Shown here: positions 28,676 to 32,810 of the stretch, one piece after another | Layout: each line of letters opens with the position of its first letter | Position numbering within the stretch: the first letter of the stretch is position 1 | From: Taibaiella chishuiensis | GTDB taxonomy: Bacteria; Bacteroidota; Bacteroidia; Chitinophagales; Chitinophagaceae | Reading direction: 5' to 3' | Assembly (NCBI RefSeq): GCF_003014535.1 | Contig: NZ_PYGD01000001.1 | Location: 806,001-870,000 of the forward strand | Length of the DNA: 64,000 nucleotides | Notes under the pieces: generated by a model | Told to the model about the DNA's origin: nothing | Database searches by the model: none | Seen by the model: only the letters and a program-made list of their open reading frames with translations | Translations under genes and position numbers: made by a program

Positions 28676-30121
28676 TTAACCGACGCTGCCTTCCAGGGAT
28701 ATCGCCAGCAGCTTCTGTGCTTCTACGGCAAATTCCATCGGCAGTTTATTCAGTACTTCTTTGGCAAAACCGTTCACGATCATCTCCACCGCCTTTTCGG
28801 TATCGATACCGCGGGCATTGAGATAAAAGATCTGGTCTTCGCCGATCTTCGACGTCGTAGCCTCATGTTCCAGCGTCGCCGTATTGTTCCTGGATTCGAT
28901 ATAAGGGAAGGTATGCGCACCGCAACGGTCGCCGATCAGCATCGAGTCGCACTGGGTAAAGTTACGTGCGTTGTCTGCCTTGCTGCCGATCTGTACCAAG
29001 CCGCGGTAGCTGTTCTGGCCATTACCTGCCGATATCCCTTTGGAGATGATGCGGCTGCGGGTATTGGCGCCCAGGTGATAAATCTTGGTGCCGGTATCGG
29101 CAATCTGTTTGCCTTTGGTAACGGCTACGCTGTAAAACTCACCATAGCTGTTGTCGCCCTGCAGGATCACGCTGGGGTATTTCCAGGTAATGGCCGAACC
29201 GGTTTCTACCTGGGTCCAGGAGAGTACCGCGTTGGCGCCTTTGCAGATGCCGCGTTTGGTTACGAAGTTGTAGATACCGCCTTTGCCTTCCGCATCGCCG
29301 GGGTACCAGTTCTGCACGGTCGAGTATTTTACTTCGGCATTATCCATCACCACGATCTCTACTACTGCGGCGTGCAATTGGTTCTCGTCGCGCATCGGTG
29401 CGGTACAGCCTTCGAGGTAGCTTACATAAGCTTCCTTATCGGCTACGATCAGCGTACGTTCAAACTGGCCGGTATTCTGCGCATTGATCCGGAAATAGGT
29501 AGAGAGTTCCATCGGGCAACGTACGCCTTTGGGTATGTATACGAATGAGCCATCGGAGAACACCGCGGCGTTCAGTGCGGCAAAAATATTATCGCTGTGC
29601 GGTACCACGCTGCCCAGGTATTGTTTTACCAGTTCGGGATGCTCTTTAACGGCTTCGCCGAAGGAGCAGAATATAATACCCAGTTTGTTCAGCTCTTCCT
29701 TGTAGGTGGTCTTTACCGACACGCTGTCGAATACCACATCCACGGCTACACCGGCCAGGCTTTTCTGTTCGGAAAGCGGTATGCCCAGCTTTTCAAAAGT
29801 GGCCAGCAGCTCGGGATCTACCTGGTCGAGACTGTCGTATTTAGGTTTGGAACTGGGAGCAGCGTAGTAAGAAATGCCCTGGAAGTTCATGTCGGGCATT
29901 TTAAAGTTCTGCCAGCCGGGAAGGTCCATTTTCTCAAAAGCATGAAAAGCCTTCAGGCGCCATTCCAGCAGCCATTCGGGCTCTTCTTTTTTCTTTGAAA
30001 TAAAGCGAATGGTATCTTCATTAAGGCCGGGTGGCAATATGTCCATTTCGATGTCGGTAACGAAACCATGCTCGTATTCTTTACCGGCAATCTCTTCTAA
30101 GTATTCGGTACTGTTTTCCAT
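28676..30121 (-). CDS. sufB: Fe-S cluster assembly protein SufB
   Basis: A 481-residue scaffold subunit. The N-terminus ([18 protein letters not shown]) and the segments [20 protein letters not shown] and [20 protein letters not shown] are standard SufB. The C-terminal part has the cluster-ligand region [19 protein letters not shown] and [20 protein letters not shown]. It heads the operon. A good Bacteroidota promoter lies 48-79 bp upstream of the ATG. No IscR-type regulator is present nearby. Confidence 0.96.
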
Positions 30122-30168
30122 AACATCTCAGCCCATGGGATATAGGGCATTACCTGTGATTAAGCCTG

Positions 30169-30200
30169 CAAAGTTACAACCAAAAACCTGCAAAAACCAA
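30169..30200 (-). promoter_or_regulatory. suf operon promoter
   Basis: On the minus strand TTG (30198-30200), 21 bp, then TAACTTTG (30169-30176), matching TTG-N19/21-TAnnTTTG. The leader would be about 40 bases. Confidence 0.6.
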
Positions 30201-30335
30201 GGTTAATGATAAAAGGTTTCTATATAGTATTAGGCTATACAAACCGGCCTCCGCAGCAGGCTTGCAGCACTTTTATCCTCCTGCACCGGGTATCGGTCGG
30301 TATATTTTGCGCCGCAAAGTTCTTATTAAAAAAAT

Positions 30336-30363
30336 AAAAAATACCAGGAATCCGGTATTTTTT
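30336..30363. terminator. A/T-rich hairpin upstream of the peptide genes
   Basis: AAAAAATACC (30336-30345) and GGTATTTTTT (30354-30363) flank an 8-base loop. No gene ends just upstream of it on the plus strand, so it may end an unseen small RNA or shield the peptide genes from read-through. The remaining DNA of 30202-30335 shows no gene. Confidence 0.45.
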
Positions 30364-30380
30364 ATTAATATGTGAAAATT

Positions 30381-30427
30381 TATTTTTGTTGCCGCTGCTT
30401 ATGCAGCGTACTCCGGGGCTTGCCCCG
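30381..30427 (+). promoter_or_regulatory. -7 element and double hairpin leader of the first peptide gene
   Basis: TATTTTTG (30381-30388) fits TAnnTTTG. Two hairpins follow: CGCTGC-TTAT-GCAGCG (30393-30408), then CGGGGC-TT-GCCCCG (30414-30427) with a T run behind it. The second looks like a terminator placed about 50 bp before the peptide start, as in an attenuated leader. Confidence 0.45.
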
Positions 30428-30477
30428 TTTTTACCCGGCTTATCATTTCCTTTTATTCACTTAAAAACCAAATTTTT

Positions 30478-30672
30478 ATGAAAAAGAAAAGTGCTGGTCT
30501 CTCCCGTAAATTATTTCTGAATAAAGCTGTGCTGGCCGAACTGAACCTGCGGCAGCAGCAAGTGCTTATCGGCGGGGCTGCGCCCAGCCGCAAATTGCCC
30601 TGTGTAACCGTAGCCGGCGCCGGCAGTTGCAATACTACGCCCCCGAACCAGGATATCTGTATCTGGTGCTAA
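30478..30672 (+). CDS. Putative class I lanthipeptide precursor 1
   Basis: A 64-residue peptide. Residues 1-33 are a leader: a basic start (MKKKSAGLSRK), the KLFLNKAVLAELN segment that resembles the leader pattern of Bacteroidota class I lanthipeptides, and a double glycine at 32-33. The 31-residue core (34-64) has Cys42, Cys51, Cys61 and Cys64 with Ser37, Thr44, Ser50, Thr53 and Thr54, enough to form several thioether rings, and ends CIWC. It has no hydrophobic signal peptide, so export would need a double-glycine peptidase transporter. None, and no LanB, LanC or radical SAM gene, is in the window. A second related peptide follows 86 bp downstream. Confidence 0.75.
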   Translation: MKKKSAGLSRKLFLNKAVLAELNLRQQQVLIGGAAPSRKLPCVTVAGAGSCNTTPPNQDICIWC

Positions 30673-30703
30673 AATTAACCGGTACCATTTGCATTGCCTG
30701 ATG

Positions 30704-30718
30704 TCCCCGCTGCGGGGA
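30704..30718 (+). promoter_or_regulatory. GC-rich palindrome between the two peptide genes
   Basis: TCCCCGC-T-GCGGGGA is a perfect 7-base dyad with a single-base centre, 40 bp before the second peptide start. It has no T run, so processing or a stability element is as likely as termination. Confidence 0.4.
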
Positions 30719-30758
30719 ACTGAAGAAAATTTAATCACCCCCTTTATTCCCATTGTTT

Positions 30759-30974
30759 ATGAAAAAGAAAAAAACCGGCCTGCCCAGGCTGCAGTTCAAC
30801 AAAGAAGCCATCAGTATTTTGAATACCTGGCATAGCGCCGGGGTAAAAGGCGGCAGCGGCCTCGATTGCGGCGGCGTGCAGGTGAGCAATGGCCAGCCCA
30901 TCAGCTGTATCGGCCATACCTGCGAGTCCTGGAACTCCGAGATGCCTACCTGCTGGAATTGCGCCGAGGCCTGA
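30759..30974 (+). CDS. Putative class I lanthipeptide precursor 2
   Basis: A 71-residue peptide from the ATG at 30759. The leader (residues 1-32) matches precursor 1 in layout: MKKKKTGLPR, LQFNKEAISILN and Gly31-Gly32. The core of 39 residues is different and richer in Cys (37, 50, 55, 65, 68), with Ser33, Ser43, Ser49, Thr54, Ser57, Ser60 and Thr64 and three Trp in the whole peptide. A shared leader with a diverged core is what one expects of two substrates for the same remote modification enzyme. An unmodified disulfide peptide, or a linear azole product, are alternatives. A strong terminator shared with rng follows. Confidence 0.72.
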   Translation: MKKKKTGLPRLQFNKEAISILNTWHSAGVKGGSGLDCGGVQVSNGQPISCIGHTCESWNSEMPTCWNCAEA

Positions 30975-30984
30975 TCCCGGGTAT

Positions 30985-31036
30985 AAAAAAGAACGCCGCC
31001 AATAACCACGATGGTTAAGGCGGCGTTTTCTTTTTT
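30985..31036. terminator. Bidirectional terminator between peptide genes and rng
   Basis: AACGCCGCC (30992-31000) pairs with GGCGGCGTT (31019-31027), with an inner TAACC/GGTTA helix. A runs on the left and T runs on the right serve both directions. Confidence 0.85.
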
Positions 31037-31043
31037 GAAGCTT

Positions 31044-32600
31044 TTAGAGCTTAATAATTTCTTCCGTTTTCTGATCGAAAAAATGATATTCGGTCATCTG
31101 GTAATTGTTGTCGGTGTGGAGCTTCAGCCATACACCGTACGTACGGTACCATTTCCACTGCAGGGAGCGCCAGAAACCGCTGGTCTTCAGGTAAGCAACA
31201 AGCATGGGGTGTGCGTGCAGCTTCAGTTTGCGGTGTCCCTGGTTGATCAGGTACCTGAAATCTTTTTCTACCTCGTCGGTAATCAGGATCGAAGGGCCTA
31301 TTTTGCCGGTTCCTTTACAGGTAGGGCATACCTCGGCCGTACTGATATTGATCTCGGGGCGGAGGCGCTGACGGGTAATCTGCATCAAGCCGAACTTGGA
31401 GATCGGGAGCAGGGTATGCCGAGCTCGGTCGGTGGTCATGCACTCCGTCATGTAATCATAAAGCTTTCGCTTGTTGTCGGGCAGCTTCATATCGATAAAG
31501 TCGATAATGATGATACCGCCGATATCGCGAAGGCGCAGTTGCCTGCAAATTTCTTCTGCGGCTTCCAGGTTGGTCTTCAGGGCGCTTTCCTCCTGGTTGC
31601 CGTCTGCGGCGCGGGTACCGCTGTTCACGTCGATCACGTGCATCGCTTCGGTATGCTCGATAATGAGGTAAGCGCCGCTTGCGAGGTTTACCGTTTTACC
31701 GAATGCGGCCTTTACCTGCCGGGTAATCCCGAAGTGATCGAATATCGGCTGGCCGTTATGGTAGAAGTTGACGATCTCTTCTTTTTCCGGTGCGATACGG
31801 GATACATATTCCCGGGTTTCGTTCATGATCCCTTTTTCATTGACAACGATACGCTGGAAACTTTCGTTCAGCAGGTCGCGCAAGATGGAGGTGGTTTTAG
31901 CCTGTTCGCTCAGGATCCGTTTGGGCGGATGAGCGCCTTTCAGGTTTTCCTGTATAGTTTTCCACTGGTTGGTCAGGTCCAGCAGATCGGCATGCAATTC
32001 GGCCGTGTTTTTGCCCTCGGCTGCGGTTCTTACGATTACCCCGAAGTTTTTGGGTTTGATACTTTCCACGATCTTTTGCAGCCGTTTTCTTTCTTCTCCG
32101 GAGTGAATTTTCCGGGATACGGATACAAAATTATTGAAGGGGGTAAGTACTACAAATCTTCCGGGAAACGAGAGTTCGCAACTTAAACGGGGACCTTTGG
32201 AAGATATCGGTTCTTTCAGAATCTGGACAATGATCTCAGGTTTCTGGGTAAGAACATCGGTAATCTTACCGGTCTTTAATATTTCCTGCTCATTCTCGAA
32301 CTTGCCAAAATCGAAGCCATTGGGGCTGTTGTCCCTTATGGCTGTATTTGTAAATTTCAACAGTGAACGGATATACGGACTCAGGTCGGAATAATGGAGA
32401 AAAGCGTCTTTTTCGTATCCAACATCTACAAATGCGGCATTAAGGCCGGGCATCAGTTTTTTTACTTTGCCTAGATATAAATCACCAACGGCAAACGCCG
32501 AATTATTATGTTCGTAATGAAGTTCTACGAGTTTTTTATCTTCCAGAAGCGCTATTTCTACCCCATCAGCCGACGCATTGATTATCATTTCTTTATTCAT
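31044..32600 (-). CDS. rng: Ribonuclease G/E family endoribonuclease
   Basis: A 518-residue protein from the ATG at 32600 (MNKEMIINASADGVEIAL); the longer frame is not needed. It has an N-terminal S1 RNA-binding domain (VGDLYLGKVKKLMPGLNAAF, then VDVGYEKDAFLH). The catalytic core has the metal-binding MHVIDVNSGTRAADGNQEE and LRDIGGIIIIDFIDM. The zinc-link Cys pair is CPTCKGTGKIG. It lacks the long degradosome tail of enterobacterial RNase E. Known roles of the family are 16S rRNA 5' end maturation and mRNA decay. A tiny ribosome-related gene (32811-32906) lies upstream on the same strand. Confidence 0.93.
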   Translation of the reverse strand: MNKEMIINASADGVEIALLEDKKLVELHYEHNNSAFAVGDLYLGKVKKLMPGLNAAFVDVGYEKDAFLHYSDLSPYIRSLLKFTNTAIRDNSPNGFDFGKFENEQEILKTGKITDVLTQKPEIIVQILKEPISSKGPRLSCELSFPGRFVVLTPFNNFVSVSRKIHSGEERKRLQKIVESIKPKNFGVIVRTAAEGKNTAELHADLLDLTNQWKTIQENLKGAHPPKRILSEQAKTTSILRDLLNESFQRIVVNEKGIMNETREYVSRIAPEKEEIVNFYHNGQPIFDHFGITRQVKAAFGKTVNLASGAYLIIEHTEAMHVIDVNSGTRAADGNQEESALKTNLEAAEEICRQLRLRDIGGIIIIDFIDMKLPDNKRKLYDYMTECMTTDRARHTLLPISKFGLMQITRQRLRPEINISTAEVCPTCKGTGKIGPSILITDEVEKDFRYLINQGHRKLKLHAHPMLVAYLKTSGFWRSLQWKWYRTYGVWLKLHTDNNYQMTEYHFFDQKTEEIIKL

Positions 32601-32810
32601 GAAAATCGTTTTAGTCGTCACCAATACTGCTCCTGCTCCCGGGTATAGATCCCGTGGAGCAGTGCAGTTTTTTTTCTGCACGCTTATAAAAATACAAACC
32701 CCATACTTACTCAGGGAGCAGTACCGGGGTTAGCATTTTATAATATTGGAATTAAACAGAAAGGCCATGCATATACATTAGATAAAGCTGGTTTCCGTTA
32801 AAAAACAGTG

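Follow-up and report, generated by a model that had tools for sequence, protein, structure and literature searches.

Two adjacent peptide genes of Taibaiella chishuiensis as predicted members of a dispersed class I lanthipeptide precursor library

The stretch of DNA analysed here (the window, 64,000 nucleotides of Taibaiella chishuiensis contig NZ_PYGD01000001.1, positions 806,001 to 870,000) contains two adjacent small genes, P1 and P2, which lie in the same direction between sufB and a gene of the Rne/Rng ribonuclease family and which are interpreted as precursor genes of a lanthipeptide system dispersed over the genome (Table 1). An initial annotation had described two small genes with matching leaders, a double glycine (GG) at about residue 32, cores with 4 and 5 Cys and 5 and 7 Ser/Thr, the neighbours sufB and rng, and the layout of Bacteroidota class I lanthipeptide substrates, and all of these observations held. 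Both open reading frames (ORFs) are present, the GG occupies residues 32-33 of P1 and 31-32 of P2, the P1 core holds 4 Cys and 5 Ser/Thr and that of P2 5 Cys and 7 Ser/Thr, and a search of NCBIfam places both leaders in NF038153 (lant_leader_L1a, hereafter L1a), above its cut-off of 22 bits (P1, 40.3 bits, E 2.6e-10; P2, 29.7 bits, E 5.3e-7). No NCBIfam family other than L1a was matched by P1 or P2 at E up to 10, and no Nif11-type leader was found among these results, the Nif11 leader model being presumably included in that collection; Pfam returned a single match for the pair, to P1, which was below cut-off and unrelated. Membership of the pinensin family was rejected, as the pinensin leader model NF038180, which belongs to the models searched, has no match in either peptide at E up to 10, a correction to the initial annotation, which had cited the pinensins; a radical SAM substrate leader (TIGR04149) was likewise rejected at the same limit. 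Chance ORFs were set aside on the leader scores and on 14 control genomes, in which L1a had no match over cut-off and gave weak matches in five at E up to 10. Judged by their sequences, P1 and P2 are real genes whose leaders are of the class I lanthipeptide type and of the GG kind known from Bacteroidota.

Table 1. Features of the P1/P2 locus (positions are those of the window)
Feature	Position	Strand	Basis
P1, class I lanthipeptide precursor gene (predicted), 64 aa	30478..30672	+	ORF; L1a leader 40.3 bits; core reciprocal best match to same-site G001 peptide
P1 leader, 33 aa, IGG end; LFLNKAVLAEL fits LxLxKx5L	30478..30576	+	L1a match; motif as given in the available text of PMC7268733
P1 core, 31 aa, Cys spacing 8-9-2	30577..30669	+	Core comparison
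P2, class I lanthipeptide precursor gene (predicted), 71 aa	30759..30974	+	ORF; L1a leader 29.7 bits
P2 leader, 32 aa, KGG end; LQFNKEAISIL = LxFxKx5L	30759..30854	+	L1a match
P2 core, 39 aa, Cys spacing 12-4-9-2	30855..30971	+	Core comparison
sufB, conserved flank, about 91% identity in G001 and G003	28676..30121	-	Flank comparison
Rne/Rng-family ribonuclease, conserved flank, present in 29/29 searched genomes	31044..32681	-	Flank comparison
TAnnTTTG, possible Bacteroidota -7 element, end 89 nt 5' of P1 ATG	30381..30388	+	Motif scan
G+C hairpin then TTTTT in 5' untranslated region, possible attenuator, weak	30414..30427	+	Terminator-like site scan

The description of the pair as an orphan was not borne out, because P1 and P2 are 2 of 63 scattered precursors in the same genome (G000, 5.84 Mb, 24 contigs), where L1a recognises 63 leaders over cut-off, a number that rises to 80 when E up to 10 is allowed. 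The 63 leaders occupy 16 contigs and, when those within 5 kb are merged, form 40 sites, with 37 on one strand and 26 on the other, and 11 of them lie within 10 kb of a LanB or LanC gene, the other 52 lying beyond. The pair is 165 kb from the nearest LanB/LanC on its contig and has neither gene beside it; sites such as L039, L041 and L052 also show no LanB/LanC match beside their precursors. The cores of this collection are highly varied, with a mean of 5.1 Cys (minimum 1) and 7.9 Ser/Thr per core over 75 cores. The single genes are ordinary and the set is unusual: it is a dispersed class I lanthipeptide library that is probably served in trans, and mining for lanthipeptide precursors beside enzymes would miss most of it (52/63).

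The distribution of this library was followed in 29 genomes (the window genome, the three congeners G001, G002 and G003, 14 genomes of the same family and 11 of the same order), with leaders counted at E up to 0.002. Homologous leaders are found outside the window genome, with 63 in G000, 90 in G001, 49 in G003, one each in G008 and G027 and none in the 24 others, and LanB is present in six of the 29 (G000, G001, G003, G008, G010 and G027). The congener G002 has no LanB, no LanC and no leader, and does have a C39 exporter. Since G000, G001 and G003 possess leaders together with LanB and LanC and G002 possesses none of these, the library goes with the enzymes inside the genus, and this presence and absence makes the idea of processing in trans testable by gene deletion. 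Across the phylum, at least 9 of 296 genomes, G000 included, carry leaders (the best 25 candidates were scored per genome and the counts are lower bounds, G000 itself reaching 25 there); in the other phylum genomes the leaders are clustered at few sites, the largest group being at least 20 in G232 within about 6 kb among the matches listed.

Selection on the cores was assessed in 161 peptides kept from sampled loci (76, 45 and 40), among which 16 core pairs were reciprocal best matches between G001 and G003 and a further 20 and 15 involved G000. The pooled ratio of nonsynonymous to synonymous change (omega, dN/dS) in the 16 G001-G003 pairs was 0.14 for leaders and 0.088 for cores (bootstrap 0.05-0.13), and the residues kept in the core pairs were 101/102 for Cys, 116/135 (86%) for Ser/Thr and 352/499 (71%) for the others. 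The cores of these sampled pairs are under purifying selection; because the pairs were picked by core similarity, this covers the sampled members and not every gene. It was also observed that a core end, YDPQxTCExxPRPGYVC, is common to one Taibaiella and one Chitinophaga precursor (L039:6492 and L191:5089), both behind the RNA motif described below.

The suggestion of lan-type enzymes encoded elsewhere in the genome was borne out, as LanB, LanC and a C39 exporter were all found outside the window. Of the three conditions under which the initial annotation would have been refuted, the absence of lan-type enzymes from the genome and the absence of homologous leaders from other genomes were examined, and neither applies. 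The accompanying claim that the window is free of biosynthetic enzymes stands for these three, none of the genome's matches falling inside it (no separate scan of the window was made), and does not extend to radical SAM enzymes and other peptidases, which were not searched. The genome encodes three LanB, one of which appears as two matches within a single frame, together with six LanC. LanB1 (C1:1004.5-1007.6 kb) is full length with both dehydratase domains, matches four solved lantibiotic dehydratase sequences, NisB included, and is located close to a C39 peptidase-ABC exporter. In G001 and G003 its counterparts, at 56-57% identity, adjoin both the exporter (84%) and one further gene. For the LanC next to LanB2, the counterparts in G001 and G003 reach 60% and 62% identity, the LanC of L032 has counterparts of 50-51% in the same genomes, and the other four LanC reach only about 35% or less in the loci compared. 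A single full-length C39 exporter occurs in each of the four genus genomes, that of G002 being 42% identical to that of G000, and the extra C39 matches are a weak partial one in G000 and a short one of 164 codons in G001. Several further loci were recorded. A divergent LanB of 939 aa (L049:6079-8898) has no L1a leader match in the 16 kb stretch that surrounds it. At L032, L122 and L142 a LanC occurs without a nearby LanB match, and the precursors there share the core segment TTSFGxCSGFLCC in the three precursor-rich Taibaiella. Two L1a precursors with similar core ends lie beside a ThiF-family protein and a LanC at L040:6091-9190 (G000:C4:254-257 kb), a cluster in which no LanB was found by PF04738 and which may represent a different chemistry. 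Finally, MvdC- and MvdD-like ATP-grasp maturases of the graspetide type, somewhat under curated cut-offs, lie near the LanB1 cluster (L024:16515-18605).

It is considered likely that P1 and P2 both serve as substrates of a class I lanthipeptide system that is dispersed and acts in trans, with modification, export and activity as predictions. Each peptide, as read from its sequence, combines an L1a leader ending in GG with a core containing Cys and Ser/Thr. This leader would be bound by a distant LanB, most likely LanB1 near the C39 exporter, with dehydration of Ser and Thr, after which a LanC, most likely of the type beside LanB2, favoured for its closest counterparts in both precursor-rich congeners, would close the thioether rings and produce a C-terminal ring frame common to P1 and P2 and set by C-x9-C-x2-C. 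The single full-length C39 peptidase-ABC exporter would then cut after the GG and export the peptides, so that scattered genes would feed one production line. The products would most likely, though this is a guess, be secreted as a mixture that targets neighbouring microbes or serves in signalling.

A GG leader together with a C39 exporter is enough for export, and both are present here with no LanB or LanC adjoining the pair, so the peptides might instead be cut and exported unmodified by the C39 exporter, as disulfide or free-thiol microcins or bacteriocins, with no action of LanB. Disulfides would also explain why Cys is the most conserved core residue in the sampled orthologs. Unmodified export is nevertheless improbable, since the leader is of class I lanthipeptide type, each of the four genomes of the genus has either the library along with LanB and LanC or none of these, and Ser/Thr are kept more often than other residues (the percentages given above), a difference that exchangeability could explain. 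Modification by another enzyme of ribosomally synthesised and post-translationally modified peptides (radical SAM, ATP-grasp or ThiF/LanC type) in place of LanB is very improbable: the sub-cut-off MvdC/MvdD-like pair, the ThiF and LanC cluster with its L1a leaders and sub-cut-off scores for the TIGR04149 radical SAM substrate model in 3/5 related Chitinophaga peptides would agree with it, whereas P1 and P2 themselves match only L1a in NCBIfam at E up to 10 (the genome's radical SAM enzymes were not surveyed).

The history of the pair itself was approached through its congeners. The sufB-rng interval of G001 holds two precursors in the order and direction seen in G000; the P1 core and the first G001 peptide are reciprocal best matches (15 residues, 53%, E 1.2e-4), and the P2 core has no match in the G001 same-site pair at the threshold used for P1. 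A terminal C-x9-C-x2-C, formed by the last three Cys, occurs in 4 of the 159 cores compared, namely P1, P2 and the G001 same-site pair, and the same spacing is internal in two further cores. The initial annotation had called the cores unlike; they are not wholly so, as they share this terminal Cys frame. As this frame is common to both peptides and is otherwise found, among the sampled cores, only at the same congener site, P1 and P2 may act together. Next to the G001 pair a truncated third leader was recorded (L068:668), which probably represents a precursor gene in decay.

A number of findings weigh against the reading of P1 and P2 as substrates of a trans-acting LanB/LanC system. The pair is poorly conserved: there is no precursor between rng and sufB in G003 and no leader genome-wide in G002, and at 17.3 and 21.8 bits the G001 counterparts remain under the L1a cut-off. 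Omega of the pair is uninformative, as the changes are near saturation (P1 core, dN 0.65 and dS 1.28; P2 core, dN 0.91 and dS 2.0), and selection was measured on library members other than P1 and P2. A LanB alone brings no library, as G008 has four LanB and one leader and G010 one LanB and none; a LanC adjoining LanB1 was not found in the G001 and G003 stretches compared; LanC clusters without LanB in G000 might serve some leaders; and the assignment of the LanB and LanC acting on P1 and P2 is itself inferred. Because the pair is absent from the G003 interval, its G001 leaders are weak and the Cys frame is kept, it appears as a young or fast-changing unit with a conserved Cys frame. The same absences from G003 and G002, the truncated leader in G001 and the uninformative omega would also agree with the pair being a decaying remnant, with precursor genes scattering by duplication and drifting without use. 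Such decay is quite unlikely, given that both frames are open and retain leader, GG and a terminal Cys frame common to G001, that strong purifying selection acts on other members, and that the start region is A-rich in 138 sampled genes lacking the RNA motif described below, the pair included, with A at -12 in 0.86 of them versus 0.37 at the 746 starts used as controls (the first ATG of each long frame, in some cases not a true start). An A-rich start region is expected of well translated Bacteroidota genes.

With regard to expression of the pair, TAnnTTTG, which we take to be the Bacteroidota -7 consensus, is over-represented 5' of library genes (45/161 upstream regions versus 15.6 expected in local shuffles). 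A sigma-70 promoter scan of 30120-31060 found none, and an Rfam search of 29900-31200 gave no match. The 5' hairpin listed in Table 1 is no evidence by itself, because 4 terminator-like sites were found in the pair region where 1.7 +/- 1.8 are expected. The ATG of P2 at 30759 is preceded by an in-frame TTG at 30753, and Rng as query in a contig search returned no relatives.

Other library genes are preceded by an RNA motif in which a short hairpin is followed by GAACAA, a loop strand, GGC, a spacer and AAAGACA, and then by a strand pairing back to the loop, so that a covarying H-type pseudoknot is formed. Across an alignment of 20 copies, pairing is seen in 93.2% of pair cells, compared to 82.4 +/- 1.3 in shuffles and 44-49% in slid versions, and double changes number 42 versus 14.9 +/- 3.8 in shuffles; further pair types (18 versus 18.1) are not above shuffles, and the structure was drawn from the same 20 sequences. 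A covariance model at E up to 0.001 gave 13 matches in G000, 10 in G001, 10 in G003 and 0 in G002, counts that are lower bounds as 150 of about 1,400-2,300 candidates were scored per genome, and 13 of the 33 matches in the three Taibaiella are absent from the alignment (L064:3125-3178 is an example copy). All 33 lie 15-27 nt 5' of the start of a short leader-peptide gene, of which 30 are L1a-type, one is L1a-like without GG and two, at L210 (G000:C3:130100-130600) and L167, have GG leaders of another type, so that the pseudoknot regulon may exceed L1a precursors. At least 11 library genes other than the pair carry the pseudoknot; none precedes P1 or P2, as a regular-expression search over the window gave three matches, none near the pair, and the covariance search gave none there. 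A pattern scan returned 30 matches in 29 loci (23 of Chitinophaga, 6 of Taibaiella); a short peptide gene comes after every match, with two of these cut by the locus end, and of five Chitinophaga peptides tested from behind a pseudoknot three were over the L1a cut-off and two just below. A class-wide search of 395 genomes for the pseudoknot found 2 weak matches outside G000, the best 14 candidates being scored per genome, which makes its negatives weak. Rfam had no match to the pseudoknot, 8 loci at gathering thresholds giving only TPP and tRNA, at other places of these loci, and one locus at E up to 10 giving three weak matches far under gathering scores. The pseudoknot might, as a guess, be a translational regulator, although simple masking of a Shine-Dalgarno sequence would not fit its spacing from the start codon; if it were a riboswitch or a protein site, it would provide a handle on the timing of peptide production. 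In a wider proposal, held with slightly more confidence than doubt, some Taibaiella would maintain 49 to 90 scattered precursors per genome, many with cores under selection, that share one LanB/LanC/C39 line and are in part controlled by an undescribed pseudoknot shared with Chitinophaga, with P1 and P2 as a two-peptide unit.

Several known systems resemble parts of this arrangement. As far as the available text of their survey goes, Walker et al. (2020, PMC7268733) described the leader motif LxLxKx5L in a number of Bacteroidetes class I precursors, together with a GG end and an association with C39 peptidases, and the pair has in common with these NF038153 precursors the leader motif (exact in P1, with F replacing the second L in P2), the GG end of both leaders, a Cys/Ser/Thr core and the C39 association. 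The precursors of that survey lay within seven genes of LanC, a neighbourhood limit that would miss such dispersed genes, whereas the G000 leaders lie mostly, and the pair far, beyond 10 kb from LanB/LanC. Pedobacter lusitanus NL19, of the same phylum, also produces class I lanthipeptides, and its PedA15.2 was cut with the C39 protease LahT150 according to the accessible part of PMC12328550. The pinensins of Chitinophaga are lanthipeptides of the same phylum with a different leader model. The literature search found neither a dispersed class I library in Bacteroidota nor this pseudoknot RNA (the original Pedobacter lusitanus papers were outside the search, and absence from print is not claimed), no paper joining "Taibaiella" with "lanthipeptide" and none naming lant_leader_L1a. 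The closest likeness in layout is offered by the prochlorosins and SyncM substrates of picocyanobacteria, for which the available portions of PMC7268733, PMC12328550 and PMC9872173 describe single genomes with tens of precursors, alike in their leaders and diverse in their cores, many of them encoded far from a few enzymes; G000 matches this with many scattered precursors, one leader type, varied cores and few enzymes. According to the same texts, prochlorosins depend on a class II LanM and Nif11-type leaders, in contrast to the L1a leaders and separate LanB and LanC of Taibaiella (no LanM search was made). If the prochlorosin layout has a counterpart in class I, this would add an unrelated second enzyme system able to tolerate widely differing cores, which would be useful for making cyclic peptides. 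In conclusion, the Taibaiella library works like the prochlorosin layout and is not a member of the prochlorosin family.
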